A stretch of 64,000 bases of DNA, taken from contig NZ_RSCL01000007.1 of the NCBI RefSeq assembly GCF_003991905.1, positions 281,475 through 345,474 of the forward strand. Direction: 5' to 3'. The position numbers were made by a program, and so were the translations under genes. Shown here piece by piece: positions 1 to 64,000 of the stretch (within the stretch, counting starts at the first letter, position 1; each line of letters opens with the position of its first letter). The notes beneath the pieces are model-generated. The model did not search any database. It worked only from the letters and a program-made list of their open reading frames with translations, and was not told the origin of the DNA. Source of the stretch: Dulcicalothrix desertica PCC 7102 (GTDB lineage Bacteria > Cyanobacteriota > Cyanobacteriia > Cyanobacteriales > Nostocaceae).

Positions 1-339
1 GTGATTGAAAAGACACGTTCCTACGCTCCACAAATAGTTACTCGTTGGGAACACCAAGCAAGAGCTTACCACTTACAGTATTTAGCTCGTAATGCAGTGC
101 GTCTTCAATCTGGTTCAATAGCTGTGCAATTAATTAATCAAGCAATAAGTGCCAACTGGCGAATTCTTATTCTTGAACCGCGTCGCATGTTTTTGACGTT
201 TGCTGCTGCCTATTCGCTTTGGCTTCTGCCACAGTCTATTTATAAATTAATTGAGACTCTAGGCTTAAAAATGACAGGAGCTAACCAAAAACGGCGTATT
301 CTTCAAGACAAGCTCGATTACCAACAAAGTTGTATTTAA
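1..339 (+). CDS. Family 2 glycosyltransferase, C-terminal part (cut by window edge)
   Basis: The reading frame is open from base 1, and its 112 residues align with the C-terminal third of the next gene: shared blocks include SYAP, ARAY, YLAR, NWRI, EPRR and LLPQS. This is therefore the tail of a GT2 glycosyltransferase whose catalytic N-terminus lies upstream of the window. The GTG at base 1 corresponds to an internal valine in the neighbour and should not be taken as a start. The gene ends 15 bp before the next, same-strand gene, so the two look like a tandem duplication in one operon. The substrate is unknown; surface polysaccharide assembly is inferred from family and context. Confidence 0.8.
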   Translation: MIEKTRSYAPQIVTRWEHQARAYHLQYLARNAVRLQSGSIAVQLINQAISANWRILILEPRRMFLTFAAAYSLWLLPQSIYKLIETLGLKMTGANQKRRILQDKLDYQQSCI

Positions 340-354
340 CAGGAATATATCCAA

Positions 355-1410
355 ATGAAAAAAGTTTCTATTATTATCCCAGTTTACAAAGCCGAGAAAT
401 ATGTAGCTGCTACCGTGCAATCGGCTCTTGACCAAACTTACAAAAATTTTGAACTCCTAATTATTGACGATGGTTCTCCTGACCGAAGTATAGAAATTTG
501 TCGGCAATTCACAGACCCTAGAATTAAAATTATACGTCAACAGAATCGCGGACTACCCGGAGCAAGGAACACAGGTATTCGACATGCAACTGGAGAATAT
601 TTAACTTTTTTAGATGCTGATGACCTGTGGTTGCCTGAAAAACTCGAAAAACACGTAACTCATCTAGAAAATGCCCCAAAAGTCGGAGTTAGTTTTAGTC
701 GCTCTGCTTTTATTGATGAAAATGGACAACCCTTGGGTATCTATCAATTACCATTACTCACGGGTATCACTCCATCTTTAGTTCTTTGCCGAAACCCAAT
801 TAGTAATGGGTCAGCAGCGGTAATGCGTAAATCAGTTTTAGAAGCGATTAAATTTCAAGATAATCTTTACGGTACTGTAGAAGATTTTTATTTTGATGAA
901 CATTTTCGCCGCTCAGAGGATATAGAATGTTGGATACGTATTTCTGTTCAGACTAATTGGCTTTTGGAAGGAATTCCTGAAGCGTTGACATTGTATCGAG
1001 TAACTTCAAGCGGTTTATCAGCTAATTTATTTGAACAATTAGACTCTTGGGAAAAGGTGATTTCCAAAGCTAGCTCATACGCACCAGAACTAGTTGATAA
1101 ATGGGGAACACTAGCTAGAGCATATCAGTTAAGATATTTAGCTCGCAAAGCAGTTAGTCTTCAAGATGGTTCTATGGCTGTAGAACTCGTTAATGGAGCT
1201 TTATCTACAAACTGGCGTATCATCGTTTACGAACCACGTCGTACCCTTTTAACCTTAGTCGCTGCCTACCTCATTTTTCTTCTACCTCAGTCCCTCTACA
1301 AATCAATTGAAGCTTTTGCACTCAAGAAAACAGGAGCCACCCAAAGGCGCCGCATCACCCAAGATATAATCACACAAGATGTTATCACGCAAGATGTTGT
1401 ATCAATCTAA
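355..1410 (+). CDS. Family 2 glycosyltransferase (GT-A fold)
   Basis: A 351-residue protein beginning with the GT2 signature VSIIIPVYKAEKY, followed by the nucleotide-binding LLIIDDGSPDRS (about residues 36-47) and the metal-binding FLDADDLW (about 84-91). It probably transfers a sugar from a nucleotide donor during exopolysaccharide, LPS or glycolipid synthesis at the inner face of the membrane. A hydrophobic stretch near residues 300-315 may attach it to the membrane. The ATG at 355 follows an AGGA box at a suitable distance. It lies 15 bp after a paralogue. The last 20 residues are built from a triplicated ITQD(I/V) motif absent from the upstream copy. Acceptor specificity cannot be read from sequence. 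Confidence 0.9.
   Translation: MKKVSIIIPVYKAEKYVAATVQSALDQTYKNFELLIIDDGSPDRSIEICRQFTDPRIKIIRQQNRGLPGARNTGIRHATGEYLTFLDADDLWLPEKLEKHVTHLENAPKVGVSFSRSAFIDENGQPLGIYQLPLLTGITPSLVLCRNPISNGSAAVMRKSVLEAIKFQDNLYGTVEDFYFDEHFRRSEDIECWIRISVQTNWLLEGIPEALTLYRVTSSGLSANLFEQLDSWEKVISKASSYAPELVDKWGTLARAYQLRYLARKAVSLQDGSMAVELVNGALSTNWRIIVYEPRRTLLTLVAAYLIFLLPQSLYKSIEAFALKKTGATQRRRITQDIITQDVITQDVVSI
1354..1398 (+). repeat. 15-bp repeat, three copies, inside the glycosyltransferase C-terminus
   Basis: Three successive 15-nt units starting ATCAC(C/A/G)CAAGAT encode ITQDI, ITQDV, ITQDV just before the stop codon. The unit is a multiple of three, so expansion keeps the frame. Confidence 0.85.
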
Positions 1411-7293: not shown

Positions 7294-7644
7294 TTGTACA
7301 GTACGTTAATACACTTGAAGTTTGCATTTGTCAAGCTACTTTAGAAGTAAATAATGTAAGCAACACCTTTCAAAAGATAGAAATGTGAATCACTCCAAAG
7401 TAGTAACTTGTATAAGTGTTGTGCCCAGATGCTGCATAGAATAAGCAATGCCTAAATTCGAGACTGTAATACCTCTTGCAAATCAAAGGGCGCCAGGTCA
7501 AAATAAAGTTTACCGCTTGTGACATATAATATGTACTTTTAATTCTAGGTTTAAGCACTTCTGAAGTTTTGAATCTAAAAGTTAAAGCAATTACTATCCT
7601 GTTTTGCAACTGTAACCACTTGTAACTGGATATTGGGGAAAAAA
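7294..7644. other. 351-bp intergenic region, no gene seen
   Basis: Separates the YdcZ remnant from the hybrid kinase on the plus strand. It has one GGCGCC (about 7489) and no convincing ORF or hairpin. The promoter of the kinase should lie here but no clear -35/-10 pair was picked out. Confidence 0.5.
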
Positions 7645-10407
7645 ATGGCAACACAGCAAGACCGTACTATTTTGATTATTAGTGATTGTGCTGAAGACCG
7701 CGTGGCTTATCGGCACTGTCTTCTCGAAGAATCAAAGTATAATTATAAAATTTTAGAAGCAGAATTAAGAGTGGGGTTGACTTTGTGTTGTGAGGCTAAA
7801 CCAGATTGCGTTTTGCTTGATTTTATCGAGTCAAAGACAGGTGGATTTGAATTTATATCAAATTTACAGGCTCAGATGGGTAAATCATATCTACCACCAT
7901 TAATAGGAATAACAGAATATCGAGACGAAATGATGGGCACCTGTAATTGTTCAGTTCGCCATTTAGTTAGTGAGTACTTAGTAAAAACTAGTTCACCTGA
8001 TACCTTACGCATAGCGGTACGCAGTGCGATTGAGATTAACGAGCTACGACACAAATTACAAGCAAGTGAAGCACATTTTCGCACTTCCGAACAATTTGAA
8101 CTAGCAGCAGAGGCAGTTAATTGCTTGATATTTGATTTAGACTTACAAACCAACACTGTAGAAAGAACGCGCGGTTTAATGGAATTAGTTGGTTATACAT
8201 TATCTGAGGCTGAACCAACTGCACAATGGTGGCATCAACTTATACATCCTGATGATATAAACTATATCAAAGGTGAGGAGTTGACGACTATTTTAGAATC
8301 GAAGCAGCGCTATACTGGGGAGTATCGCGTTCGCCATAAGCAAGGTCATTACCTGTGGGTACAAGAACAAGGAATTATTTTACGAGATGCGAATGGTCAA
8401 GCAGTGAGGATAGTTGGTAGCACAGTTGATATTACTCGACGTAAACAAGCAGAAGAAGCATTGCAACGTTCTGAGGAGAAGTTAGCTTTTGTCCTTAATA
8501 ATGTAAATGCGTCAATTAGCAGATTTTGGGTATTTCCAAATCAAGATTGGAAGTCTGATTATTATTCTCCTGGGTGTGAGAAAATTTTTGGTTACACCAG
8601 TCAAGAACTATTGCAGGATAAAAAACTTTGGTTGTCAAGAGTGGCGCCATCCGATTTAGAAAATGTGATTTTACCTAAGTTTGAAAATATTTTTGCCGAA
8701 CAAACAGTAAGTTATGAGTATAGATTTTACCATAAAGATGGTAGCTTACGATGGATTAATGATACTTTAACTTCTCAGTTCGATCAAACTGAAAATGCAT
8801 GGATTGTTACTATTATAGCTGTGGATATTACCGAGCGTAAACAAGTGTTAGAGGCACTGTGGGAGAGTACAGAACGCTATCGTTATGTAGTGGAAACTGT
8901 TCCAAACATAGTGTGGAGAGCTTGTTCAAATGGTAATAGCGACTTTGTTAATCATCGTTGGGTTGAATATACAGGGTGTGACGTTGAGCAAGCACTACAG
9001 ATGGGGTGGTTACAATTTATTCATCCAGATGATGTATTGCGAGTTCAAGCTTTTTGGCAATCAACTACGAGTAATACAAATTCATTATACGAAATACAAT
9101 ACCGCTTAAAATATATTGACGGAACTTACCGTTGGAATTTAGTTAGAGGTTACCCAATTATAGATGAGCGGGGTAACGTTATTAAATGGTTTGGTAGCTG
9201 TACAGATATTCACGACCAAAAAGAATTAGAAGCGCAAAGAAACCAGCTTTTAGCAGAAGCACAAGCAGCACGTGAAGAAGCAGAACTTGCAAACCGCACA
9301 AAAGACGAATTTCTTGCTATTGTTTCTCATGAGTTACGAAGTCCTCTCAATGCGATTTTAGGTTGGACAAAGTTATTAAAAACTCGTAACTTCGATAGCG
9401 CGAATACTGCACGTGCGTTAGAAGTCATTGAACGTAACACAGTTGCACAGGTACAGTTAATTGAAGATTTGCTCGATATTTCGCGGATGATTCGGGGTAA
9501 TTTACGTTTAACATTACAACCTGTTAATCTTGCTACGACTATTGAAACTACAGTTAATAATCTACGTCTATCGGCAGATGCGAAAAAAATAGACTTGCAA
9601 ATAAGAAATTATGCAACGAAGTGTTTAGTTTTAGGTGATATGAATCGGTTGCAGCAGATAGTTAGTAATTTACTTACCAATGCGATTAAATTTACACCTT
9701 CTTTGGGACGGGTTGAGATTTGTCTTAAAATTGTTAACCATCATACAACACAAATAACAGTTACCGACACAGGTAAAGGTATTAGTGCAGATTTTTTACC
9801 TTATATATTTGAACGGTTCCGTCAAGTAGAAAACACTACAACACGTGCCAAAGATGGGTTAGGTTTAGGGCTTGCGATTGTTCGTCACCTTGTAGAATTA
9901 CATAATGGCGCCATTACAGCTTCTAGTTTAGGGTCCGGACAGGGAGCGACGTTTACTGTAACGCTACCACTATTAGAACAGGAAGCAACCAGACAAGAGG
10001 GACAAACAGGACAAGAGGAAATATCTCCTACTATTTTATCCAACAAAAAAATCTTAGTTGTAGATGATGAACCTGATAACTGTACTTATTTAAGTTGCGC
10101 TTTAGAAGAATATGGAGCAATAGTAACAACAGCATCCTGTGTAAAAGAAGCCTTAGCAATTTTTGAAGAATTTCAACCTGATATTATTATCAGTGATATC
10201 GGGATGCCAGAAGAAGACGGTCACACACTAATACGAAAAATACGCCAACTAACAACACACAACTGTAACATTCCTGCTATTGCACTAACAGCTTATACAA
10301 AACAAGAAGATAGAGAACGCTCTCGAAATGCTGGTTTTCAACTTCACATGACAAAACCTGTCGAACCAATCGAGTTAATTAAAGCTATTTCCAACCTAAT
10401 TAAGTAA
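7645..10407 (+). CDS. Hybrid histidine kinase: REC-PAS-PAS-PAS-HisKA-HATPase-REC
   Basis: A 920-residue cytoplasmic phosphorelay protein. The ATG at 7645 is preferred over the TTG at 7633 because GGGGAA lies 6 nt upstream. An N-terminal receiver (residues 1-130) carries Asp59 in VLLDF. Three PAS/PAC units follow (about 150-275, 280-400, 410-530), the first two ending in the typical VDIT.RK and the third in CTDIHDQK. HisKA has phospho-acceptor His562 in FLAIVSHELRSPLNAILG; HATPase_c shows NLLTNAIKFTP, DTGKGIS and GLGLGLAIV. A C-terminal receiver has Asp851 in IIISDIGMPEEDG. No membrane segment is visible, so the PAS domains probably sense an internal signal. No partner regulator is adjacent. 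Confidence 0.92.
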   Translation: MATQQDRTILIISDCAEDRVAYRHCLLEESKYNYKILEAELRVGLTLCCEAKPDCVLLDFIESKTGGFEFISNLQAQMGKSYLPPLIGITEYRDEMMGTCNCSVRHLVSEYLVKTSSPDTLRIAVRSAIEINELRHKLQASEAHFRTSEQFELAAEAVNCLIFDLDLQTNTVERTRGLMELVGYTLSEAEPTAQWWHQLIHPDDINYIKGEELTTILESKQRYTGEYRVRHKQGHYLWVQEQGIILRDANGQAVRIVGSTVDITRRKQAEEALQRSEEKLAFVLNNVNASISRFWVFPNQDWKSDYYSPGCEKIFGYTSQELLQDKKLWLSRVAPSDLENVILPKFENIFAEQTVSYEYRFYHKDGSLRWINDTLTSQFDQTENAWIVTIIAVDITERKQVLEALWESTERYRYVVETVPNIVWRACSNGNSDFVNHRWVEYTGCDVEQALQMGWLQFIHPDDVLRVQAFWQSTTSNTNSLYEIQYRLKYIDGTYRWNLVRGYPIIDERGNVIKWFGSCTDIHDQKELEAQRNQLLAEAQAAREEAELANRTKDEFLAIVSHELRSPLNAILGWTKLLKTRNFDSANTARALEVIERNTVAQVQLIEDLLDISRMIRGNLRLTLQPVNLATTIETTVNNLRLSADAKKIDLQIRNYATKCLVLGDMNRLQQIVSNLLTNAIKFTPSLGRVEICLKIVNHHTTQITVTDTGKGISADFLPYIFERFRQVENTTTRAKDGLGLGLAIVRHLVELHNGAITASSLGSGQGATFTVTLPLLEQEATRQEGQTGQEEISPTILSNKKILVVDDEPDNCTYLSCALEEYGAIVTTASCVKEALAIFEEFQPDIIISDIGMPEEDGHTLIRKIRQLTTHNCNIPAIALTAYTKQEDRERSRNAGFQLHMTKPVEPIELIKAISNLIK

Positions 10408-10566
10408 AATGCATCCGCTTGTAAAGCTTGTTTTTGCTTCGGTAGGTGTAGCCCTGCTTACCCTTATGGATAAGGTGCATTCTGGTGAGTCATAGCGTTG
10501 CCCCCTGCCTAATGTATAATTAACTAAAGTAAAGTACTAATTTTTAAGCTAAGGTCAGTAATTACA

Positions 10567-10803
10567 ATGCTAAGTATAACAATAGATGAAATCCAAAACA
10601 ACCCGTTAAAGTATCTCCGTCAAGTGGAGGAAGGTGAAAGCTTTGTAATTATGCAAGCTGATAAACCTATTGCTGAACTTAAACCTGCTAGTTCTGTCAA
10701 GCAATTGAGACCATTTGGTTTATGTGCTGGAGAATTTACTGTCAGTAATGATTTTGACGCACCGTTACCAGACGATATTATTAGGGGATTTGAGGGGCGA
10801 TGA
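10567..10803 (+). CDS. Phd/YefM-family antitoxin
   Basis: A 78-residue antitoxin: an N-terminal DNA-binding half (MLSITIDEIQNNPLKYLRQV, ESFVIMQADKPIAELKP) and a C-terminal toxin-binding tail with NDFDAPLPDDII. Its TGA overlaps the next gene's ATG as ATGA, as in intact pairs. It would normally bind and neutralise a PIN-domain RNase and autorepress the operon. The adjacent toxin is truncated, so the antitoxin may now act alone. Confidence 0.85.
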   Translation: MLSITIDEIQNNPLKYLRQVEEGESFVIMQADKPIAELKPASSVKQLRPFGLCAGEFTVSNDFDAPLPDDIIRGFEGR

Positions 10804-11090
10804 AAATCCTTTTAGACACGCACATTTTTTTATGGCTTATCAGTGGGGATAATAAACTATCGATTAACACTATAAATGCTGTTCGTGACCCAGATAACGA
10901 AGTATATTTAAGCGTTGTTTCAGTATGGGAGTGCATAATTAAGTATCAATTGGGCAAATTACCATTACCAGAGTCGCCTGAAACATATTTACCAAAACAA
11001 CGCAATCTCCATCAAATTTTGAGTCTTAGAGGATGTTTGAAAAGTGTGCTTTCATGTCATGCTGAGGAACTAAACATGACAAAGGTCTAG
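10800..11090 (+). pseudogene. C-terminally truncated VapC-type PIN toxin
   Basis: The first 78 residues are a good PIN domain: MKILLDTHIFLWLISGDNKL with the first catalytic aspartate, VYLSVVSVWECIIKYQLGKLPLP with the conserved glutamate, then YLPKQRNLHQILSL. After that the sequence becomes unrelated (RGCLKSVLSCHAEE...) and ends at 96 residues. Family members have about 125-130 residues, including a DPFDR motif that completes the acidic Mg-binding site and is missing here. RNase activity is therefore unlikely. It overlaps the antitoxin by 4 bp. The open frame could still be translated. Confidence 0.75.
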
Positions 11091-11124
11091 ATTTTAACCG
11101 TTTGCAGTATATATATCAATAGAT

Positions 11125-12903
11125 TTAAGATACATTCTCCAAGGCGCCTTGTTTTTGTTGCGAAGCTAAAATAGCTGCATATAATTTATTACTTAACAAC
11201 TCTTCGTGTGTACCCTGTGCGACTAACTTACCTTTATCAAGAAGTAAAATGCGGTCAGCATTGCGGATACTACTGAGTCTTTGAGCAACCATTATTACTG
11301 TACAACGGCGCCGCCGCATTAAGTCATTCAAAGACTCTTGAATTAATGTAGCTGTTTTCGCATCGACAGCAGAAGTACTATCATCGAGAATGAGAATACT
11401 AAAATCAGTAAGTACAGTACGTGCAATAGCTATTCGCTGTTTTTGTCCTCCAGATAACCCAATACCCCGCTCGCCAACAATTGTGTCGTAACCATCGGGT
11501 AAACTACTAATAAAGTCATCAATAGCTGCAAATTTAGCTGCTTCAATTATCTTGTCTAAAGGCGCCTCTGGTACAGCATATGCGATATTATCGCGAATAG
11601 TTCCTGAAAATAAAGTTGCATCTTGAAAGACTACACCAACATGCGAACGCAAACTATCAACCGTTAAATCTCTCACATCGTAGCCATCTATTCTCACGGC
11701 GCCTGATGTAACATCATAGAAGCGGGGAATTAAATTAACAATTGTGCTTTTACCCGTTCCTGTCATCCCTACAATAGCTGCAAATTCACCTGGTTTCACT
11801 GTAAAAGAAACTTTAGAGAGCGCATTAGTATTTGCTTCTGGGTAACGAAAATCTACATCTTCAAATTCTACTTTACCTGCACATGTTTCTAAAGTAATAG
11901 GATTTGCGCGGTTGTGAATATCTATTTGTGCATCGATAACTTCATATACACGTCCTGCTGAAGCTGATGCTTGGGCAATAACTCCAGATGCAAAACCTAT
12001 TTGTAGCACTGGTTGGATAATAAATGCTAAATACGAATTAAATGCAACTAACTCACCTAAAGATAGTTGCTTGTTGATTACTTCGGCGCCGCCAAATCCC
12101 AAAACTGCTAAAGTAATAAAATTACTCAGTAAAAACAAAACAGGGAAAACATTTCGCAGCACCCTTACAGTCTTCATGTTCGACTCTAACAACTCACCGT
12201 TAAGGTTTGTATATCTTAATACTTCTGATTTTTCGCGTACAAATGCTTTTACCACCCGCACACCCAGTAAATTCTCTTCAAGAACACCATTCAAATTTGC
12301 TAGCTGTGTTTGGACTAATCTAAATAACTGTGAGTTATTTTTAAAGAACCTTCCCACTATAAATCCTGCAACTGGTATTGAAAGCAATGTTATGAGTGCT
12401 AACTTCCAATTCATTACAAGTACAATAGTCGCACTCGTAACTAAAGTAATTAGCCCGCTAAACACTTGTAGTACACTAGTACCAACAAAAGTCCGAATTT
12501 GGTCGATATCGCTGGTAACGCGCGTTAGTAACTGTCCGCTTGTTGTGCGGTTATAGTAGTTCTGACTCAAATACTGAGTTTGAGTAAAAATTTGATTACG
12601 AAGATTGTAAGCGACATTTTGCGAAGTTGCCTCTGCGAAAAAACTCTGCCCAAAGCTAAATAATCCTCGTCCAACTGCTGCTAAAACTAGAAACAGCGCG
12701 CATTTGTATACAACATCTAGATTACCCTTTGCGATACCCTGGTCAATACCCCACCGAAAAAGCTGTGGAGTTATGGCATTGATTGTAATTAGTAGTAATA
12801 AACTAGTGATGGCGCCTAACACCAGCAAGCGATAAGTATTTAAAATGCCCAGCACCCGTTTTAGAGAAGGCGCCGAGGAATTACGTTTCGATTCGTGTCG
12901 CAT
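11125..12903 (-). CDS. ABC exporter half-transporter (permease-ATPase fusion)
   Basis: A 592-residue fusion with six membrane helices in residues 15-315 and an ATPase domain in 340-580. Visible motifs: Walker A GMTGTGKST, Q-loop VGVVFQDATLF, signature LSGGQKQRIAIAR, Walker B ILILDDSTSAVD. The residue after Walker B is Asp rather than the usual catalytic Glu, and the switch position reads VAQRLSS, with Gln in place of His. Both changes occur in the degenerate partner of heterodimeric exporters, but no second half-transporter is next to it. The substrate is unknown; lipid or drug export is the family range. It converges with the truncated toxin. Confidence 0.9.
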   Translation of the reverse strand: MRHESKRNSSAPSLKRVLGILNTYRLLVLGAITSLLLLITINAITPQLFRWGIDQGIAKGNLDVVYKCALFLVLAAVGRGLFSFGQSFFAEATSQNVAYNLRNQIFTQTQYLSQNYYNRTTSGQLLTRVTSDIDQIRTFVGTSVLQVFSGLITLVTSATIVLVMNWKLALITLLSIPVAGFIVGRFFKNNSQLFRLVQTQLANLNGVLEENLLGVRVVKAFVREKSEVLRYTNLNGELLESNMKTVRVLRNVFPVLFLLSNFITLAVLGFGGAEVINKQLSLGELVAFNSYLAFIIQPVLQIGFASGVIAQASASAGRVYEVIDAQIDIHNRANPITLETCAGKVEFEDVDFRYPEANTNALSKVSFTVKPGEFAAIVGMTGTGKSTIVNLIPRFYDVTSGAVRIDGYDVRDLTVDSLRSHVGVVFQDATLFSGTIRDNIAYAVPEAPLDKIIEAAKFAAIDDFISSLPDGYDTIVGERGIGLSGGQKQRIAIARTVLTDFSILILDDSTSAVDAKTATLIQESLNDLMRRRRCTVIMVAQRLSSIRNADRILLLDKGKLVAQGTHEELLSNKLYAAILASQQKQGALENVS

Positions 12904-13005
12904 TTTACAGAAGTCACCACAGGCAGAAGTACTATGATACTACGGAGAAAGGCGCCGTTCATTCCTTCTCTGGGTTAAAAAAGCTAAAATCAGATTGTAA
13001 TCTCA

Positions 13006-13260
13006 ATGAGTGCGACTGTTATGCTGCAAATCTCTGTTACAGAAGCATCCGAAAATTTAGCTCAGTTTATTGATGCAGCCCTTACAGGGGAAGAAATAGT
13101 CATCATCAAGGATGACTTGCCTGTGGTAAAATTGACTCCGGTTAAACGAAGTGTAAAGCGCAATCGTCAACCAGGTAGTGCAGAAGGTTCGGTTTGGATG
13201 TCTGACGACTTCGACAAGCCGTTAGAAGAGTTATATAATCTGGCGCCTGCTAGCGCATAA
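13006..13260 (+). CDS. Orphan Phd/YefM-type antitoxin
   Basis: An 84-residue protein with the antitoxin pattern ISVTEASENLAQFIDAAL, GEEIVIIKDDLPVVKLTPV and a tail SDDFDKPLEELYNL. An ATG at 13021 could also serve as start. No PIN toxin frame follows: an ATG 14 nt after the stop gives only 13 codons (MLLIFNLHNSHNF) and bears only slight likeness to a VapC N-terminus. This looks like a solitary antitoxin left after toxin loss. Confidence 0.75.
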   Translation: MSATVMLQISVTEASENLAQFIDAALTGEEIVIIKDDLPVVKLTPVKRSVKRNRQPGSAEGSVWMSDDFDKPLEELYNLAPASA

Positions 13261-13321
13261 AAGCCACACTACCATGCTGTTGATATTCAATTTACATAAT
13301 AGCCATAACTTCTGATAAACT

Positions 13322-13353
13322 CTTCTGGGATGGGCATCGCAAGCCCCGTCCTC
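13322..13353. repeat. Dispersed repeat, CTTGTGGGATGGGC family
   Basis: A diverged copy (CTTCTGGGATGGGC, centre ATCGCAA, GCCCCGTCCT) between the orphan antitoxin and the kinase. Confidence 0.7.
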
Positions 13354-13369
13354 CTCAAAGTATATAAGC

Positions 13370-14806
13370 TTACTCGTGACTCTTAACAATAGGTAAAGTC
13401 ACGATAAACGTTGTACCCCTACCAACTGTACTTTCAACTTGAATTTGACCTTGGTGGAGTTCTACTATAGCTTGGGCAATAGCTAAACCTAAACCTGAAC
13501 CAGTTGCTTTTTCAGTAATTTCACTCTGGTTATGTGCGCGCGCTGGGTCTATTCGGTAAAAACGGTCAAATAATTTTGGTAAAGCTTCCGTAGGAATACC
13601 GATGCCAGTGTCAATAACTTTTACTTTTAGTAAAGGAGTAAGATAACGCAGTCCAGATACTCGATAAATAGATTCGATACGTGTCAATTCTACATCTACT
13701 GTTCCACCAGATGGAGTATAGCGTAATGCGTTGCCTATTAAATTTGTAAATAATCGCACTAGTTGACCCCAGTCACCATTTAGCGCAAACCAGTTATCAA
13801 GTACTTCTGGGTTGGTTTCTGTCTCAGGTGGGTCAATTAATGTCAATGAAAGCGCAATTTTTTTCTCTTTTGAAAACAACTGCTGTTCTTCCACAACTTC
13901 CATTAGTAAAGCATCGAGTGGGCAAGATGAAAATATATCTTTGCTGATACCGCTATCTTGACGCGCGAGGAATAATAAATCATTAACTAGCTTGCCTAAA
14001 CGCTGCGTAAGTTTTTCGATAATTTTTAATTGTTGCTTATAGTGCGACTTAGTGGCGCCGTTTGTTTCATTTGCTTGTAAATTTGACTCTAAATCAGATA
14101 GCGCAACCTGCACATTCGTTTGAATTAGGGCAATAGGACTTCGCAACTCATGGGAAGCATCAGCGGTAAACTGTTTTAAGCGTTGGTAAGACTCGTTTAC
14201 AGGTTCCATAGCTTTTCCAGAGAGAAACCAACCACAGTAAGCGACTGAAAGCACCATTAAACTAGTACCCAAAGCTAAATCAAACATTAATTGCCGACTA
14301 GGTTTTGACACTTCAAACCAAGGATGACTCACACGTAAATATCCTAAAACCTGGCGCCCAATTTCCACACGGTCGGTAACTTGACGTAGTAATAGTGATG
14401 AGTGCTGAGTTCTGAGTGTTGAGTGGGTTCCTTTGTTTTCGATGCGAACAGTTTCACCGTTACGGTTTGAGTGAATAGGAATATTTATAGGTTCAGGGAA
14501 AGTTGTCCAAAGTAACTCTCCCGTAGGACTAAACCATTCGATATCAATACGGTCATCTTCTACCGAATTAGCATTATTGCGAAAACTCGCCTCTATATTT
14601 ATACGGTATTCCTTCTTTTGACGATTTACCTGTTCAATTACAAGCGCACGCTCAACGACTTCGACCACATGGTTCAAAGTATCATCAACACGTTCAACTA
14701 ATGTACTACGAACGTATAAGTATACTCCGCTCGCAAACAATAGCAGTAATACGGCTGTAATTGAAGTGTACCAGAGCGCTAGGCGCCGACGAGTCGCTTG
14801 AAACAT
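13370..14806 (-). CDS. Membrane sensor histidine kinase
   Basis: From the ATG at 14806 (MFQATRRRLALWY) the protein has 478 residues; the open frame extends 19 codons upstream, but those codons run into a dispersed repeat and are not kinase-like. Helix 1 is near residues 10-30, a periplasmic sensor region follows, helix 2 is near 170-192, then HisKA with His219 in ADASHELRSPIAL, and HATPase_c with NLIGNALRYTP, DTGIGIP and GSGLGLAIA. It resembles RppB/NrsS-like cyanobacterial sensors from memory, but no regulator gene is adjacent, so the signal and partner are unknown. A heptanucleotide repeat lies inside the periplasmic-domain coding region. Confidence 0.88.
   Translation of the reverse strand: MFQATRRRLALWYTSITAVLLLLFASGVYLYVRSTLVERVDDTLNHVVEVVERALVIEQVNRQKKEYRINIEASFRNNANSVEDDRIDIEWFSPTGELLWTTFPEPINIPIHSNRNGETVRIENKGTHSTLRTQHSSLLLRQVTDRVEIGRQVLGYLRVSHPWFEVSKPSRQLMFDLALGTSLMVLSVAYCGWFLSGKAMEPVNESYQRLKQFTADASHELRSPIALIQTNVQVALSDLESNLQANETNGATKSHYKQQLKIIEKLTQRLGKLVNDLLFLARQDSGISKDIFSSCPLDALLMEVVEEQQLFSKEKKIALSLTLIDPPETETNPEVLDNWFALNGDWGQLVRLFTNLIGNALRYTPSGGTVDVELTRIESIYRVSGLRYLTPLLKVKVIDTGIGIPTEALPKLFDRFYRIDPARAHNQSEITEKATGSGLGLAIAQAIVELHQGQIQVESTVGRGTTFIVTLPIVKSHE
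14400..14427. repeat. Heptanucleotide repeat within a kinase gene
   Basis: Four imperfect units: GAGTGCT, GAGTTCT, GAGTGTT, GAGTGGG. They match the complement of the ACTCAGC repeat at 25382-25416. Translated on the minus strand they give THSTLRTQHSS in the sensor domain. Four 7-nt units are 28 nt, so unit changes would shift the frame. Confidence 0.75.
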
Positions 14807-14847
14807 TTTTGTGTAGCAGCTATTTAGTACTAAAACATTCAAAAAGT

Positions 14848-14904
14848 CTTGTGGAGTGGGCAATATTCAAAAATTCTTGTGGAGTGGGCATCCTTGCCCG
14901 CCCT
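14848..14904. repeat. Two tandem CTTGTGGAGTGGGC elements
   Basis: A short copy (from 14848, CTTGTGGAGTGGGCAATATT) is followed 28 nt later by a full copy (from 14876, with GGGCA TCCT TGCCC hairpin). They lie just upstream of the kinase start chosen above. Confidence 0.75.
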
Positions 14905-15037
14905 TGATATTGAGACGCATAAGGTTGGTGGTTTTGTTTTATTCCTGTTTATAAATATTCGATTACGTAAAGAATATTAGTATGTAAAGCTTCTGTTGTG
15001 CTACCCAGACTCTGAATTTTTTCGCTTCATTAGCACA

Positions 15038-15066
15038 TTGACAGCAGAAATTGCAAATGTTAAAGT
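15038..15066 (+). promoter_or_regulatory. Candidate sigma70-type promoter of a small RNA
   Basis: A perfect TTGACA at 15038-15043 is followed after exactly 17 nt by TAAAGT at 15061-15066, four of six matches to TATAAT. It precedes a structured stretch ending in a terminator, with no ORF between. Confidence 0.35.
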
Positions 15067-15143
15067 CTTCAACCGCCAACACCCTAGAATCATATATAAC
15101 TCAGGCGGTTGTCTATACTCAGTGTTGTTACTGAGTATTTTTT
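15067..15143 (+). ncRNA. Candidate small RNA of about 75 nt
   Basis: Between the candidate promoter and a factor-independent terminator lie an 8-bp stem (CAACCGCC at 15070-15077 with GGCGGTTG at 15104-15111) and then the terminator hairpin. The region is in the spacer between the divergent kinase and the chaperone-usher cluster. No known RNA family was recognised. If transcription starts a few bases downstream the first stem would be clipped, so the 5' end is uncertain. Confidence 0.35.
15116..15143 (+). terminator. Factor-independent terminator
   Basis: Perfect 8-bp stem TACTCAGT/ACTGAGTA with a 6-nt loop, followed directly by six T residues. No protein gene ends upstream on this strand, which is what suggests a small RNA. 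Confidence 0.7.
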
Positions 15144-15529
15144 GTCGTCAATACCTCATAATTCCATATTCTCACTGAAGGTGGTTTGAGATTAAAAGAG
15201 TTAAATTCTTTATGTAATCGAGCGATGTAAAGAAATAAAAATTACACGCGAAGGTTCTTGTGGTGTTTTGTGTGGTATTTACTGTTTTTTATATAAAGAG
15301 GAGTGCTGTATAGGTAAAAGTTCATATATAGAAAATAAGCCATTAACATCTATTTGATGTTGACACATTGTATTTTACCGCAAACTCTCCGGCTTGCATA
15401 AGGGTCGCTCTATCAACAAATAATTAACAAAAAAATTATTAGCTTTGATGAGTACAAAGCGAGAGTTCATCAAACTTAAAAATCTGACTCTACTAACTCA
15501 ATTGTAAATTTTTTGGAGAAATTTTTCAC
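15144..15529. other. 386-bp leader region of the chaperone-usher-like cluster
   Basis: AT-rich stretch upstream of the first exported protein. A TTGACA at 15360-15365 lacks a good -10 box at the right spacing. A GGAG box lies about 12 nt before the ATG at 15530. Nothing else was recognised. Confidence 0.4.
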
Positions 15530-16099
15530 ATGAATAAGAAGATTGCATCAATCATCGCAGGAAGCTTAGCAGCATTAGGTAGCGCAATTGTAGCGGCGCC
15601 TGCTCATGCACAAACCACCATACCAGTTGAAATAGAAGTACAACCTTCTGTTTACTTAATTACATATAATAAATTGAAGTTTCTAGTTAACGAGAACGAC
15701 TTCCTTGCTGGTGGTTCAGTAAGCCAGACAGTTCCATACGATGAAAAAACTGGTGAGACTACGTTACCAGCAGGTGTACTACCAGAAGGTGAAGCAGCTT
15801 CAAATACAATTTCCAGAACTGTTAGCCCTTTGTACAGAGTTGCATCTCCTGCTGGCGGAGAGGTAAGAATTAGTGCGTCTGACATGAATCTCGAAAGAGT
15901 TGGAAGAGCAACTGAGGTAGTTACTATGGAAGTAAGTGAAGACACTGCTGTTAAAGAAATTGGAGAGCCAGACGAGTCCGGTTTTTTTGATGGTGATGTA
16001 ACGTTAGATTTTACATTCCCTGCTACCCGTGCGTCGTCAAGAACAGGAAATCCTGTATACAGTGGTGGTGAACTAACAATTAGTGTTGTTACTCCGTAA
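15530..16099 (+). CDS. Exported beta-rich protein, candidate pilus or fibre subunit
   Basis: A 189-residue protein with a clear Sec signal peptide (MNKKIASIIAGSLAALG...) cleaved after AHA at about residue 27. The mature part is rich in Val, Thr, Ser and Gly, contains no cysteine, and ends in a beta-strand-like YSGGELTISVVTP, as expected of a subunit that polymerises by donor-strand exchange. It does not visibly match the spore-coat-U family. It is the first gene of a four-gene plus-strand set that includes a PapD-like chaperone and an usher-like protein, so a role as major secreted subunit is inferred from context. A hairpin after the stop could raise its expression over downstream genes. Confidence 0.7.
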   Translation: MNKKIASIIAGSLAALGSAIVAAPAHAQTTIPVEIEVQPSVYLITYNKLKFLVNENDFLAGGSVSQTVPYDEKTGETTLPAGVLPEGEAASNTISRTVSPLYRVASPAGGEVRISASDMNLERVGRATEVVTMEVSEDTAVKEIGEPDESGFFDGDVTLDFTFPATRASSRTGNPVYSGGELTISVVTP

Positions 16100-16123
16100 G
16101 AATACTAACTTTTTTAAGATTTC

Positions 16124-16150
16124 TGGTGCAGGCCTGAGTGCCTGTTTCCA
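16124..16150 (+). terminator. Hairpin after the candidate subunit gene (possible attenuator)
   Basis: Core stem CAGGC (16129-16133)/GCCTG (16140-16144) with outer pairing TGG/CCA, followed by only a short T stretch. It could partly terminate transcription and give more subunit than chaperone or usher. Weak evidence. Confidence 0.35.
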
Positions 16151-16334
16151 GTATCTCTCATAAGTGAAATATAATTATGCCTCAATTGATTGCAGTTTTC
16201 TGCAGGTTGTTCAAGCAGCTTATGTCATAATTTATGACCGAATGCAGGCTAAATATAGAATTGAATAAATTAATTAGTCGCTGTAAACACTCATAATTGA
16301 TGACATATGTTGTTCCTATAGCTTAATAATTAAA

Positions 16335-16865
16335 ATGAATGACCGACTTTTTAGAAAATGTAACTTATTTGTTGTTTTTGCAATACTTATCGCACAACAG
16401 CCACAAGCGTTTGCAGAGGAAAGAATTGATTCTTGTCAATTGAATATTTATGAGGTACCTAGACTACAACTAAATCAAATAACATCTTCAGATATATTAG
16501 CAAACTCTGTTGAGCGAGTTGATAATCAGCAATCACTATTTTCAGCTAGACCGCGATTAAATGATTTGATTACTCGTCCCTTAGTGTGGGAAATGCGAGT
16601 TAACAAAACAGACTTGCCTATTAACGCTAATCAAATTCAGTATCAGGTAGCACCAGAGAGGAGGAACGGTAATCCTTTTAATTCTGTTGTTGTTAAAGCT
16701 GAAAATTTTAATGATGCTGTCAGAAGCTGCGATGAGAAGACGGCGGTAATAAGAGGTGAAGTGACTTTAGAGTTTCGAGATTTACACCGGATTAAACCGA
16801 CTCGTACTCAACAGCAACCAATACCTTTTCGAGCGAATATTCGAGTATGCTTAAAAAGCTGCTAA
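16335..16865 (+). CDS. Exported cysteine-containing protein of unknown function
   Basis: A 176-residue protein with an N-terminal signal segment (NLFVVFAILIAQQPQAFA, cleavage near residue 27) and four cysteines in the mature part: one in DSCQLNIY, one in RSCDEK, and a C-terminal CLKSC pair. It ends in ANIRVCLKSC, so two disulfides are possible. No family was recognised. Placed between the candidate subunit and the chaperone (54 bp before the latter), it may be a minor or tip subunit or an assembly factor; this is inferred from position. Confidence 0.6.
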   Translation: MNDRLFRKCNLFVVFAILIAQQPQAFAEERIDSCQLNIYEVPRLQLNQITSSDILANSVERVDNQQSLFSARPRLNDLITRPLVWEMRVNKTDLPINANQIQYQVAPERRNGNPFNSVVVKAENFNDAVRSCDEKTAVIRGEVTLEFRDLHRIKPTRTQQQPIPFRANIRVCLKSC

Positions 16866-16919
16866 TTAGTATTAATAATTATTAAATTATTTATTGAAGT
16901 GAGGATTTGAGCGATTAAA

Positions 16920-17816: not shown

Positions 17817-18028
17817 TTTTACTGCAACACTTATTCTTCAGGAAGAATTGATTACTACCCTGAGTTAACTTGCTGTAAAAAATTTTAATCAATTAATCTC
17901 AACTATTAAGCAGTGTTGAGTTCCAAATCCGCCAGTTCAAAACTTTTTTACTTTAATTCAATCGGTAATTACTGCTAAAAAATCATTGCTGTTCCTAGAT
18001 TTTTTCAAGGCTTAATATTCAAATACTT

Positions 18029-21653: not shown

Positions 21654-21903
21654 TTATACACACTTCTACCCGTTCTATACTAAAAGCTTGTTACAAGTTG
21701 ACTTTTTAATTGGGTGGAAATCTTGAAGATGCTTCGTTCGCGACTCATGACACTTGTATTTGTTCCAATAGACAACCTAATTTTGGAATAATCTCACAAA
21801 ACATCAAGTTTTGTCTTCTACCATCGAGGGAATTACCTGCCATAGCCCTTCTACTATAGAATATTGCTAGATTCATCTATAAGCGTGGGTGTTAAAAGTA
21901 CAC

Positions 21904-24106: not shown

Positions 24107-24288
24107 AACCCTAGAAACCCGGTTTCTTTATCGATAACTTGTAATCTAAATAACGATTTTGGAAGAGAAACCGGGTTTCTTCGTCGATAACTTGTAATTT
24201 AAACAGCGATTTTGGAAGAGAAACCGGGTTTCTTCGTCGATAACTTGTAATCTAAATAACGATTTTGCTTAGAAACCCGGTTTCTTAT
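24107..24288. repeat. Tandem palindromic repeat, 53-bp unit, four palindromes
   Basis: The hairpin GAAACC(C/G)GGTTTCTT occurs at 24114, 24167, 24220 and 24272, spaced 53, 53 and 52 bp. The linkers (CGATAACTTGTAAT... AACGATTTTG) are also conserved, so the whole unit is tandemly duplicated. Single copies of the same hairpin lie at about 53298, 53348, 56618 and 62355. Confidence 0.9.
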
Positions 24289-39462: not shown

Positions 39463-39606
39463 AATTTCACCTGAGACTTGCAAAATAATTCTTTACACTA
39501 TAGAATTCCCAAAAAGTGAGTGAAAGTTATCAGTATTTTCAACATTTTTTATGTAAAAATGTAAAACATTTAGATTCTCTTGTTATTTAAACTACAACCT
39601 TAAAAC

Positions 39607-49781: not shown

Positions 49782-51923
49782 TTACTTAGCAACACATACT
49801 ACACGAAAGCCAACGCGGTTTAATTTATCATTTGAATCCCAACTTTTACGGAAGGCTGAACGACAATCTCTCGGGTCGTTATACCAAGAACCACCTCTTA
49901 ATAATCGTAAATTGGTACTATTATCATCAAACCATGCTTGTCCATCGCTCAAAGCATTATTGTAATTTTCACTCCAGCAATCTAAGCACCACTCCCAAAC
50001 GTTACCATGCATATCGAAAAGTCCAAAAGCATTAGCGAGAGGGAAAAACTCAACAGGAGTTGTTTTTTTTCTGAAGTTTCCTTTAAGTTGTGACCTATAG
50101 CTGTAATTACTGTCATAGTTTGCCAGTTTGGAGGTGATAGTTTCTCCAAAATGAAAAGGAGTTTTAGTGCCTGCACGACAAGCATATTCCCATTCTGCTT
50201 CTGTTGGCAGCCTATAATCGTGTCCTGTTTCTCTAGAAAGACGTAGGCAAAATTCCACTGCATCGTACCAAGAAACTTGTTCAACAGGTAAATTTGCCCC
50301 TTTAAAATGTGAGGGGTCTAGTTCTAAATCCCTATTAACTGTATTTAGAGTTGCTACTGCTTTCCACTGTGCTTGAGTTACTGGATATTTCCCTATTAAG
50401 AATGGTTTGGTTACTACTGAATGTTGAGGTCCCTCATTCGGAAGTCGTCTTTCCTCTGTTTCAGGTGAACCCATAAGAAATCTACCACCAGGTAGTAACA
50501 CTAACTCTAGTGAAACTCGTTTTTCTATGTATTGTCCGGCTGTTTGCTGATTACGTTGTATCTCCTGCCCCTTCTGGTCTATTGATACTACTTCAAACTT
50601 AAAAGTAGAAGTAGTAAAGGAAGAAGACAATATTTGAGGTGGTATATTTAGTAAGCTTATTGTCTCATTGGAGTCTGATTTGGTAGTAGAATGATTCTCT
50701 GTTACACTTTCTGGCACCAATCCCAAAGCTTCGCAAATAATTTCAAACTTCCTAGTATCAAGCATTTCTTGCTTAAAGAAGCGAAGAATTGTACTTTTAC
50801 TTATGCAACATACCTCAGCAAGTTTTGCGTAAGTGAATTTTTTCTCTGTCTTGGCAAGATTCGCTAATTCGGCGCCGTTGTTAGATAATTTTACATAACT
50901 AGCTTTTTGATTAGGTTTGTCATAATTTGTTGACAATGTAGAACTTTCTTCACTGCTGCGGCTATTGGAAGTATAATCTGGTTGAAATTCTGTTTGAATA
51001 TCAGCTTGAGTTTTAGAAGTTTTTAAAGCAATGCGCTTAATTGCATTAATTGCTTGGTTATCTATGATAGAAGCTTCTAAAACTCTAATCCACAGTTGTT
51101 CAGCCAACTCTAATTTTCCTTCTGCCTCAGCTTCAAAGGCATCAGCTTTGAGAATACTAACATCTGTGGGCGTTGCTTGCTTAGGTAATAAGATTAAATG
51201 TAATTTTGTCGCCGGCTCTGCAATCGTGTATGGCGTTTGTCGAGGCTTTTTATAGCGACTATTGATTTCAGGAACTTGATTACGTAAATATTGGTAGAGA
51301 CGGTCAACGGTTGCACAATTATTCTTTCCCTGTATTCGTAAAGCTTGAAGCAAACTGTACGTGAATGAGCCATGTTGAAACTCATCAATTTCGTAAGAAC
51401 GCTCATTAGGACTACAGGAAAAAAAAGTAACAATGCCCTGTTGCTTTTCGACCCCAACTCCTTCTCCATCTCGGTCACCTTCATTGCGACAAGCATCAAG
51501 AAAAAGAATCACGTTATCAGCACCACATCTACGTAATCGTTCGCTAATGTAATTAATTGAAATAGCTGTACGTTGTATATTGCCAGGGTCAGCATCGCTA
51601 GGCATTAAGTAATCTCGATTAAGATGTCTTTTTCCATGCCCAGCAAAGAAAAACCATATATTGTCACCTGCTCCTAAAAACTTTTCCTCAAAGCGTGCTC
51701 GTAAAAAGCGTGAGAGAGTACCATAAGTAGGCTGTGAGCGCATTGGTGAACCGTAGTCCTGCTGAATAGGAGGTGAGTCGTCAGAAAAATAGTAAACTTC
51801 CTCAAAATCTAATTGATTAAAACAAAAAGCTCTAAATGCCTCCGCATCACGTTTAGCATAGTTGAGGGGAGCCAAATAATCGTATTCATTAATCCCAATT
51901 GCGATAGCCCAGTTTCTCACCAT
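49782..51923 (-). CDS. Caspase-HTH-FGE-sulfatase fusion (orthocaspase)
   Basis: A 713-residue three-part protein. Residues 1-245 are a caspase-like C14 peptidase: NWAIAIGINEYD, His96 in FFFAGHGKR, and Cys145 in VILFLDACRNEGD, so the catalytic dyad is intact. Residues 350-405 look like an XRE-type helix-turn-helix (FTYAKLAEVCCISKSTILRF, then FEIICEALGLVPESV). Residues 465-713 are a formylglycine-generating-enzyme-like domain (LLPGGRFLMGSPETEERR, YPVTQAQWKAV, RLPTEAEWEYACRAG, LFDMHGNVWEWCLDCW, LRGGSWYNDPRDCRSAFR). Caspases of this kind cleave after Arg/Lys and are linked to stress death or defence. The small gene 41 bp upstream is likely its partner. FGE-type domains without copper-site cysteines often serve as binding modules. 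Confidence 0.88.
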   Translation of the reverse strand: MVRNWAIAIGINEYDYLAPLNYAKRDAEAFRAFCFNQLDFEEVYYFSDDSPPIQQDYGSPMRSQPTYGTLSRFLRARFEEKFLGAGDNIWFFFAGHGKRHLNRDYLMPSDADPGNIQRTAISINYISERLRRCGADNVILFLDACRNEGDRDGEGVGVEKQQGIVTFFSCSPNERSYEIDEFQHGSFTYSLLQALRIQGKNNCATVDRLYQYLRNQVPEINSRYKKPRQTPYTIAEPATKLHLILLPKQATPTDVSILKADAFEAEAEGKLELAEQLWIRVLEASIIDNQAINAIKRIALKTSKTQADIQTEFQPDYTSNSRSSEESSTLSTNYDKPNQKASYVKLSNNGAELANLAKTEKKFTYAKLAEVCCISKSTILRFFKQEMLDTRKFEIICEALGLVPESVTENHSTTKSDSNETISLLNIPPQILSSSFTTSTFKFEVVSIDQKGQEIQRNQQTAGQYIEKRVSLELVLLPGGRFLMGSPETEERRLPNEGPQHSVVTKPFLIGKYPVTQAQWKAVATLNTVNRDLELDPSHFKGANLPVEQVSWYDAVEFCLRLSRETGHDYRLPTEAEWEYACRAGTKTPFHFGETITSKLANYDSNYSYRSQLKGNFRKKTTPVEFFPLANAFGLFDMHGNVWEWCLDCWSENYNNALSDGQAWFDDNSTNLRLLRGGSWYNDPRDCRSAFRKSWDSNDKLNRVGFRVVCVAK

Positions 51924-60595: not shown

Positions 60596-60599
60596 AAAT

Positions 60600-61220: not shown

Positions 61221-61284
61221 TCATAAAATATTTGTTTCAAGTATTGTAAGATACAAATGAATAGAATTTACTAGCAGTTTCTAG

Positions 61285-62196
61285 ATGGCAAATCAAAAGC
61301 ACATATCCTTATTATTACAAGGTACAAATATCTGGAATCGGTACAAGGAAGAGGGATTTTCAACTCAAATAGACCTGAGTTACGCGCAATTAGAAGCTGC
61401 GAATCTTAGTGGAGTGTACCTTAGTGGCGCCAATCTTAGTGGCGCCAATCTTAGTGGCGCTAATCTCAGTCGTGCTAACCTTAATTGTGCGAACCTCAGC
61501 AAAGCAAATCTTGAACAAGCTTCTTTGAGTCGAGCTTGTTTATTACAGGCAAATTTAGAAAATGCAGTTTTATTTAAAGCTAATCTCAACCAAGCGAATT
61601 TACTCGGTGCTTGTCTTCAAAATGCAGACCTTCAAACTGCAAGATTCGTTCGTGCTAATTTAACGGCAGCAACACTTTCAGAAACAATTTTCTGGAAATC
61701 TATACTAACTGGGACAGTTTTAAGAAGAGCAGATTTGGCAAGAGCAATATTTCAAGAAACAAACCTTTGGTGTGCAGACCTAAGTGAAACTGATTTAACC
61801 GATACATACTTTTTGCAAGTTAACCTTAACCGTGCCAATTTACGCTCGGCAAATTTGAAAAAGTCATTACTGAAGAAAACAAGTTTTTGGCAAACTAACT
61901 TTGAAAATGCTTTGCTAGAAGGAGTTTATTTTCGGAGGGCAGTATTTAATCAAACTAATTTTAAAGGCGCCCATTTACAAGGAGCAAATTTAGAACATGC
62001 GATTTTCAAAGACGTTAATCTTTCAGGAGCTAACTTAGCAGGAGCTTGTCTAGATAAAGCTGTATTTATCAATGTTGATTTAACAGGAGCTAATTTAACA
62101 GGCGCCTCATTTCACAGAACTATTTTTAAAGAAGTTAATTTAAAAACAGCTTTAGGAATTGATAGTAATCTCAGCAAAGGGACATTAATCTACTAA
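61285..62196 (+). CDS. Soluble pentapeptide-repeat protein
   Basis: A 303-residue protein with about 50 A(N/D)LXX repeats from residue 30 to the end and no membrane segment. The N-terminal 28 residues (KHISLLLQGTNIWNRYKEEG) form the small cap common to cyanobacterial pentapeptide proteins. The repeats should form a right-handed quadrilateral beta-helix. The nearly identical LSGAN units at 61420-61460 carry GGCGCC or GGCGCT in register. Function unknown; DNA-gyrase mimicry is a known family activity but is not supported here. Confidence 0.85.
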   Translation: MANQKHISLLLQGTNIWNRYKEEGFSTQIDLSYAQLEAANLSGVYLSGANLSGANLSGANLSRANLNCANLSKANLEQASLSRACLLQANLENAVLFKANLNQANLLGACLQNADLQTARFVRANLTAATLSETIFWKSILTGTVLRRADLARAIFQETNLWCADLSETDLTDTYFLQVNLNRANLRSANLKKSLLKKTSFWQTNFENALLEGVYFRRAVFNQTNFKGAHLQGANLEHAIFKDVNLSGANLAGACLDKAVFINVDLTGANLTGASFHRTIFKEVNLKTALGIDSNLSKGTLIY

Positions 62197-62642
62197 TTTC
62201 CCAATTCTCGTACAAAATAGCATATTTTATACTTATGTTATAACTATCTGTTATATATAAATTATTATTCATAACTACCAATTTATTTTATTCGTTTTAA
62301 CTGGTTGTATATTATACATTGTGGGTATTGTTTTTTCATGTTGATTCGTTACATTGAGAAACCCGGTTTCTGTAACCTCTGTCTAAAGATATATTTATTA
62401 AGATATATAGATAAGTAAATTCTTATAGATAGGTTCAATTATTATTTATAAACTTATACTCGTGTGAAATCATAATTAAGTATGAGTTTTGTTATTGAAT
62501 GCTTTGCTAGTGTTGGTAGAGGCTAGCAACTATAATTATTCTTGCTTATAATTGGTTTTTAGTAAGAATTACAAGTAATAGAATGATTGTACTTGTAAGT
62601 CAGAACATATTAGTCCCAATCGGTTTGCTACCAGGTGTAATC
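62197..62642. other. 446-bp intergenic region upstream of phosphoketolase
   Basis: AT-rich, with one GAAACCCGGTTTCTG hairpin (62355-62372). No ORF. The phosphoketolase promoter should be in it. AGGTG precedes the xfp ATG by 7 nt. Confidence 0.5.
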
Positions 62643-64000
62643 ATGACTTTAGCAATTTCGACCGAACAGAAGCCTTTAACTGACGAAGAACTACATTTAA
62701 TTAACGCTTATTGGCGCGCGGCTAATTATCTTTCTGTAGGACAAATATATCTTTTAGATAATCCGCTTCTTAAAGAACCTTTAACAATTGAACATGTTAA
62801 ACCAAGGCTTTTAGGGCATTGGGGCACTACTCCTGGTTTGAATTTCATTTATGTTCATCTAAATAGAATCATCAAAAAATACGACCAAAGCGCTATTTAT
62901 ATAGCTGGGCCAGGACATGGTGGACCTGGGTTAGTGGCGAATACTTATTTGGAAGGTACTTATAGCGAGTATTATCCAAATATTTCCCAAGATACTGAAG
63001 GAATGAAACGTTTATTTAAGCAGTTTTCGTTTCCTGGTGGTATTCCTAGTCATGTGGCGCCAGAAACTCCTGGTTCAATACACGAAGGTGGGGAACTTGG
63101 TTATGCATTATCTCATGCTTACGGCGCCGCATTTGATAATCCTGATTTATTAGTTGCCTGTGTTGTTGGTGATGGTGAAGCTGAAACTGGCCCACTTGCA
63201 GCTAGTTGGCACTCGAATAAGTTTCTTAACCCTGTAAACGATGGCGCCGTATTACCTATACTGCATCTCAACGGGTACAAAATTGCTAACCCAACAGTAT
63301 TAGCGCGTCTTGAACATAACGAATTAGAAAGTTTGTTTATTGGTTATGGGTATAAACCTTACTTTGTCGAAGGTTCTGACCCAGTACTAATGCACCAACA
63401 AATGGCTGCGACTTTAGAAACTGTGGTGGAAGAAATTAAAGGTATTCAAAGAGAAGCGCGCGTACATGGGTTTACCAAGCGTCCTCAATATCCAATGATT
63501 ATTCTGCGAAGTCCCAAGGGATGGACGGGACCAAAAGAAGTTGACGGTAAGAAAACAGAAGATTTTTGGCGTTCGCACCAAGTACCATTTGGTGAATTAA
63601 AAAGCAAACCCGAACATATTCAGCTTCTCGAACAGTGGATGAAGAGTTATAAACCAGAAGAACTCTTCGACGAGAACGGTAAATTTATTCCCGAACTTGC
63701 ACAACTGGCGCCAACAGGACAGCGACGCATGGGTGATAACCCACATGCTAATGGTGGTGTCTTGATGCGCGCGTTGCGAATGCCTGAATTTGATGACTAC
63801 GCAGTTGATGTTCCAAAACCTGGTTCAGTTGTTGCTGAGGCTACCAAAGTAACTGGTAAATTCCTCAGAGATATCATGAAATTGAATCAAGAAAGCCGTA
63901 ATTTTAGAGTATTTGGTCCCGACGAAACGCAATCAAATCGTCTAGACGCAGTATTTGAGGTTACTGATAGAACTTGGAACGCTCCCCGTATCCCTGAAGA
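62643..64000 (+). CDS. xfp: Phosphoketolase, N-terminal 452 residues (runs off window)
   Basis: Starts at the ATG at 62643 ([17 protein letters not shown]) with AGGTG upstream, and is open to the window end. It shows the thiamine-diphosphate enzyme features of Xfp: [59 protein letters not shown], the cofactor-binding [13 protein letters not shown], and [15 protein letters not shown]. It splits xylulose-5-phosphate or fructose-6-phosphate to acetyl phosphate plus a shorter sugar phosphate. Full enzymes have about 790 residues, so roughly 57 per cent is seen here. Confidence 0.95.

Follow-up and report, generated by a model that had tools for sequence, protein, structure and literature searches.

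The hexameric palindrome GGCGCC is far over-represented in a 64,000 bp stretch of the genome of Dulcicalothrix desertica PCC 7102 (referred to here as the window; C7:281475-345474 of an 11.42-Mb assembly in 109 contigs), a stretch that holds no copy of highly iterated palindrome 1 (HIP1). From strain to strain existing GGCGCC sites stay intact over precisely these six bases, synonymous positions included, and the interpretation favoured here, if only with moderate confidence, is that GGCGCC constitutes a methylation-linked alternate HIP of the Calothrix lineage that is maintained site by site.

1-64000, strand unassigned: field of GGCGCC, 112 palindromes, about 1.75 per kb, zero GCGATCGC (HIP1)

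At 38.4% GC the window would be expected from zero-order composition to hold 3.2 copies of GGCGCC, against the 112 observed, and the hand count of the initial annotation (at least 110, with 3-4 predicted) was therefore accurate. The sites are placed almost at random (mean spacing 562 bp, standard deviation 536), and the count of CGATCG, like that of HIP1, is 0. Over the whole 11.42 Mb there are 19,393 copies of GGCGCC, or about 1.7 per kb, together with 58 of HIP1 (5 per Mb), so that the reported absence of HIP1 is exact for the window and has to be relaxed to rarity for the genome. A 464-kb sample of the genome, made up of the window and 20 stretches of 20 kb, contained 820 GGCGCC, far from the expectation of either Markov model applied to it: 36.8 under an order-1 model (about 22x) and 16.2 under an order-2 model with the sites masked (about 50x). 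Under the latter the palindrome stands at 50.6 of expectation in this genome and at 0.10 across 1.51 Mb from Nostocales that carry HIP1. Applied to the window by itself, a maximal-order Markov test gave only 112 against 57.6, because the submers on which it relies are themselves built from GGCGCC sites. The next enriched hexameric palindrome in the sample was CGCGCG (150 copies, 4.5x, and 0.37x in HIP1-bearing relatives). Seven others (TGCGCA, GTCGAC, GCATGC, CGTACG, GAGCTC, CCATGG and GTGCAC) were all at 0 where 38-107 were expected, and most of these are scarce in relatives too. The reversed control CCGCGG occurs once in 11.42 Mb; it is a poor control in this genome because two Eco29kI-family systems are present (one restriction endonuclease found via Pfam, both systems via PADLOC), the specificity of which we take to be CCGCGG. 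Cytosine-5 (C5) methyltransferases lie beside an Eco29kI-like endonuclease at both C62:9843-10979 and C4:342899-344044.

The preservation of sites was seen in alignments with related strains, comprising about 50-120 kb of aligned sequence per comparison, restricted to pieces of at least 300 bp and 75% identity. Sites of the window strain were intact in 220/246 cases in PCC 7716, 114/138 in PCC 7103 and 91/111 in NIES-4105, compared with 73%, 70% and 51% respectively of all hexamers and 78%, 63% and 57% of other all-GC hexamers; the conservation among sister strains that had been suggested as a check on the initial annotation is thus evident. It extends to four-fold degenerate third positions, which were scored where the first two codon bases were unchanged and for which the same codons outside sites supplied the expectation. 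Inside sites 391/409 such positions were unchanged in PCC 7716 (317 expected), 202/223 in PCC 7103 (171 expected) and 174/192 in NIES-4105 (107 expected), while FI2-JRJ7 (37 unchanged, 32.7 expected) and HK-06 (36 unchanged, 31.2 expected) provided only 41 and 39 positions. With codon and next base matched, p values for PCC 7716, PCC 7103 and NIES-4105 were 5e-21, 4e-5 and 5e-23 (at least 5 controls were required per codon context, NIES-4105 keeping 187/192 positions), and with matching to nearby codons they were 4e-9, 0.027 and 6e-12; all are nominal, as third positions that share a site, and kindred strains, are not independent. In the same order, the codon-matched ratio was 1.23, 1.18 and 1.62 inside sites and 1.01, 0.99 and 0.98 at 1-9 bp from a site, and since the excess conservation ends at the edge of the hexamer something must act on the exact sequence. 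No effect of distance from a site on nearby synonymous change was found in these comparisons, bar one far bin (1000-5000 bp) in PCC 7716, where the ratio was 0.837 (n=423); the other comparisons gave 1.04 and 0.96.

The distribution of the palindrome among relatives was approached through a gene of the window.

21889-24105, + strand: polyphosphate kinase (Ppk) gene, by Pfam, the anchor for finding relatives and for comparing local site densities

The nearest named records by this gene were Calothrix PCC 7716, FI2-JRJ7, PCC 7103, HK-06 and NIES-4105, whose Ppk loci carry 27-35 GGCGCC per 21-22 kb and zero HIP1. At 75 Ppk loci outside the genus there were 0-2 GGCGCC, and 74/75 had 4-26 HIP1, as the claim that filamentous relatives carry many copies would have it; the exception was Calothrix parasitica NIES-267, with 1. 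When 60 whole genomes were compared, 7/7 of the genus contained 7,475-20,380 GGCGCC, equivalent to 1150-1711 per Mb, and none of the 53 other relatives exceeded 402 per Mb (the maximum, in G008). HIP1 was near zero in the stretches of the genus that were sampled (4 in 200 kb of NIES-4105), and these figures agree well with the suggestion that HIP1 has been replaced by another palindrome in this lineage.

The manner in which sites decay bears on the question of methylation. With the three comparisons pooled, every substitution class at sites fell below trinucleotide expectation, the least suppressed being the change of the internal cytosine at position 3 (C3) to T (49 seen, 72.2 expected, 0.68). 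The corresponding figures for G1 to A were 14 and 68.0 (0.21) and for G2 to A 10 and 53.0 (0.19), and C3 to T differed from these two classes combined with a Fisher p of 3e-9. Losses polarised for PCC 7716 with NIES-4105 as outgroup were to GGCACC or GGTGCC in 7/8 cases; the same polarisation gave 8 gains, several requiring more than one change, some of which may be the result of misalignment or recombination. Relative to expectation GGTGCC is 3.05-fold commoner than in HIP1-bearing relatives (a control set from which NIES-267, L075, was left out), the most of any sequence one base removed from the site; GGGGCC follows at 2.03-fold, on 17 cases only, and 7/9 of these one-off sequences are rarer than in the relatives, at 0.35-0.81. 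The substitution pattern fits, as indirect evidence, deamination of a methylated internal cytosine (5-methylcytosine, m5C, at C3).

A candidate for the enzyme emerged from a genus-wide clustering of methyltransferases, which covered C5 enzymes. There are 13 PF00145 matches in the genome of the window strain, and one cluster was common to 7/7 genomes, represented here by C4:441733-442671; the orthologues of this gene on the chromosomes group in a single clade with support of 100/100. Divergent extra copies of the family occur in at least four strains, PCC 7103 having two copies, and in the HK-06-like G248 the nearest copy is broken by contig ends, with another, full-length one at 83% alongside it. 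The first suspect, an L005-type C5 methyltransferase (C3:539586 of the assembly), was rejected since it is found in 5/7 genus genomes only, and the L009 type was rejected as a genus-specific candidate, having full-length orthologues in 23/53 other relatives. Outside the genus the common enzyme has matches in 8/53 relatives, one of them a fragment, and 6 of those 8 carry the HindVP endonuclease PF09519, which was searched for in the genus genomes and found in 0/7. Neighbours were inspected for the best 19 homologues in the order, drawn from the 50 genomes, other than that of the window, in which E values of 1e-40 or lower marked a homologue; identity was 62-69%, and 14 had an endonuclease-like neighbour (in G235 an open reading frame, ORF, of only 211 aa), of which 4 were tested with Pfam and all proved to be HindVP. 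Endonuclease-linked genomes (n=17) have 0-18 GGCGCC per Mb, against 1150-1711 in the genus (n=7). The specificity of HindVP is presumably GRCGYC, and from its partner family the genus enzyme should recognise the same sequence. The closest solved structures, HaeIII and then HhaI methyltransferases among others, are too distant to inform on specificity.

A count of 243 genomes of the order revealed two others dense in GGCGCC. G116 has 2,365 in 2.2 Mb, but its control CCGCGG is high too at 1,104. G059 has 9,489 in 3.8 Mb, and in a sample at 53.7% GC its ratios to order-2 expectation were 2.59 for GGCGCC and 4.34 for AGCGCC, with HIP1 at 11 per Mb; it carries a homologue of the genus C5 methyltransferase at 54%, without a HindVP-like neighbour by eye. 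In its congener G007 GGCGCC is at 0.28 of expectation and a homologue of the C5 methyltransferase was not found. It is suggestive that G059 may have an independent alternate HIP with a motif broader than GGCGCC. HIP1 in G007 stands at 12 per Mb, and CAGG and GGCC cores recur in the most frequent 8-mers of that genome (e.g. CCAGGGCC), perhaps another iterated motif.

The near-disappearance of HIP1 is accompanied by that of GATC, which in the window is at 0.05 of expectation. All seven genus genomes have a DpnII-family gene adjoining a Dam-type gene (here C17:92651-94491). Strong DpnII-family matches are also found outside the genus in G255, G264, G265 and G024, which nevertheless have HIP1 at 733-1057 per Mb (58-80-kb samples), and the 22-kb locus of NIES-267 has only 3 GATC and 1 HIP1 with no gain of GGCGCC. 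Restriction at GATC may therefore have helped the loss of HIP1, but is not the whole story. The places of HIP1 in the window strain are partly clustered: C7:20-40 kb has 7 HIP1, 49 GATC and 21 GGCGCC, where other stretches have 1-9 GATC per 20 kb, and by this palindrome content it looks like recently acquired DNA.

These elements can be assembled into a mechanism. The lineage would have lost GATC and with it HIP1, clearing the way for GGCGCC; the solitary C5 methyltransferase, of the HindVP-partner family, would have ceased to serve restriction and would methylate the internal cytosine (GGmCGCC); the methylated sites would have a HIP1-like cellular use, in strand discrimination during repair or in chromosome organisation, and new sites would tend to be retained and broken ones selected against. 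Several observations tell against this scheme. Loss of HIP1 via a DpnII system alone has to be rejected, given the four carriers that keep it. In six other genomes where the enzyme has no endonuclease-like neighbour within 1.5 kb GGCGCC is at 8-132 per Mb, so that the enzyme without its endonuclease is not sufficient; partner loss accompanies relief of GGCGCC avoidance without by itself giving enrichment. The presumed GRCGYC is broader than the enriched form, GACGTC being at 0.07 and GACGCC at 0.60 of expectation in the 464-kb sample. A second C5 enzyme, that of the L009 type, is likewise present in 7/7 genus genomes, and PCC 7103 is the weakest of the conservation comparisons (locally matched p 0.027). 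As for the dedicated methyltransferase that the initial annotation envisaged, a C5 enzyme in 7/7 genomes without its endonuclease and the C3-to-T bias speak, indirectly, for a matching methyltransferase, and it is the word dedicated that the breadth of GRCGYC calls into question.

One alternative, in which base composition, the choice of codons or some dispersed family of repeats produces the excess, can be given next to no credence. In a 244-kb stretch 378/424 sites were inside ORFs, a density of 1.92 per kb in coding and 0.98 per kb in non-coding DNA, and 57% of the in-gene sites (214/378) read GGC GCC, or Gly-Ala, as codon use would have it; all three codon phases are nonetheless occupied, sites lie between genes as well, as had been claimed at the outset, and identical codons that lie outside sites show much less conservation. 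Sequences differing from GGCGCC by one base are at 0.44-1.11 of expectation (order-2 model, 464-kb sample), except for GGTGCC at 1.24, and with these neighbours mostly at or below expectation and the hexamer about 50-fold above it the unit must be the hexamer itself, which refutes a compositional or repeat origin. The adjoining bases do vary, though not freely, G making up 10.4% of 1640 flanks. Some sites do belong to a repeat.

61402-61483, strand unassigned: 15-bp tandem array, consensus unit ending GGCGCC

Only a small share of the sites in the window sits in this array, in keeping with the view that no one repeat family is responsible, and an Rfam search of the window gave no match. A more serious alternative, albeit a rather unlikely one, is the mutational ratchet without function that Elhai proposed (PMC4390886), in which mismatch repair guided by GmC favours new GGCGCC and the sites are a by-product. 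It explains why, among GRCGYC forms, only GGCGCC accumulates while GACGTC is so depleted; the C3-to-T bias is consistent with the internal-cytosine methylation that it supposes, the scarcity of most one-off sequences looks as if they had been converted to sites, and sites quickly re-made after their loss could pass for conserved ones. Against it, the repair in that model spans about 1 kb, yet the extra conservation ends at the hexamer, although a regional effect is poorly tested here because at 1.7 sites per kb nearly all positions are near a site; the model also predicts saturation near one site per kb, below the 1.7 per kb observed. That the hexamer is kept for a binding protein, in chromosome organisation or DNA uptake, with the methyltransferase incidental, is improbable. 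In its favour, constraint limited to the site at synonymous positions demands only selection on sequence; against it, the C3-to-T bias points towards m5C at the internal cytosine, no protein binding the hexamer came to light, none having been looked for, and uptake sequences are not known to be palindromic. Weak selection acting on the hexamer seems to us likelier than a ratchet driven by mutation alone, the two not being separated by these data.

Elhai (2015; PMC4390886) described GGCGCC as standing in for HIP1 in Calothrix PCC 7103, and the phenomenon, having been published for a sister strain, is not new in kind. The accessible text of that paper, based on one genome of the GGCGCC kind and 19 kb of D253, reports that PCC 7103 has only 16% of the expected GATC and encodes an endonuclease for that sequence together with two methyltransferases presumed to act on GrCGyC, and calls exceptional HIPs sporadic and not in clades. 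The present findings resemble those for PCC 7103 and D253 in the hexamer, in the near-loss of HIP1, GATC and CGATCG and in the GATC endonuclease, and the two copies of the presumed GrCGyC methyltransferase family in PCC 7103 were recovered here as well. They differ from the sporadic pattern in that 7/7 genus genomes share the enrichment, and go beyond that text in that sister genomes allow site-by-site conservation tests. What is added here is the reach across the genus, the synonymous constraint limited to sites, the solitary enzyme and the bias of C3 towards T. A search for literature joining Calothrix, DNA methyltransferase and GGCGCC found only this paper, most subscription papers and supplements being outside its coverage. 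The genome of the window strain matches Elhai's alternate-HIP class in its genome-wide palindrome excess and its near absence of HIP1, which at 5 per Mb is well short of the hundreds per Mb that mark a HIP1 genome. Like HIP1, GGCGCC is a GC-rich palindrome at about 1 per kb, in genes and spacers, and linked to solitary methyltransferases, but it lacks a GATC or CGATCG core and an N6-methyladenine (m6A) site; Xu (2018), as cited in PMC6604393, held HIP1 to be maintained by selection. The rCCGGy alternate HIP of Oscillatoria PCC 10802 (G136) is similar in lacking HIP1 throughout a 54-kb sample and in being enriched for a different family of GC palindromes (top 8-mer CACCGGCA, matching the table in PMC4390886), and differs in sequence and in being degenerate. 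HindVP restriction-modification systems (PF09519 with a C5 methyltransferase) share the methyltransferase family, but the genus lacks PF09519 and its site is enriched instead of rare.

Elsewhere in the window a tandem array of 53-bp units (3.3 copies, 24113-24286) directly follows the Ppk gene, the product of 35758-39483 (1241 aa) combines a protein kinase domain with one of the AAA_16 type, and the gene at 49782-51923 has a caspase domain and a sulfatase-modifying-factor domain.

A genus with a stand-in palindrome bears on the purpose of HIP sequences. Several sequenced strains, at 87-94% identity in their aligned parts, allow one to ask which sites persist, by what route they decay and which enzyme accompanies them; the data so far reveal constraint confined to the hexamer and a route of decay compatible with m5C, and the link to one solitary methyltransferase can be tested in named strains. 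A bolder proposition, which is possible and should be held only tentatively, is that throughout the genus one epigenetic mark of the whole genome has been exchanged for another, GGmCGCC doing what methylated HIP1 does elsewhere, with a methyltransferase freed from its restriction partner and thousands of individually selected sites. If this were true, what matters for HIP function would be methylation of a GC palindrome, whatever its letters, and the genus would amount to a natural experiment on the role of HIPs.

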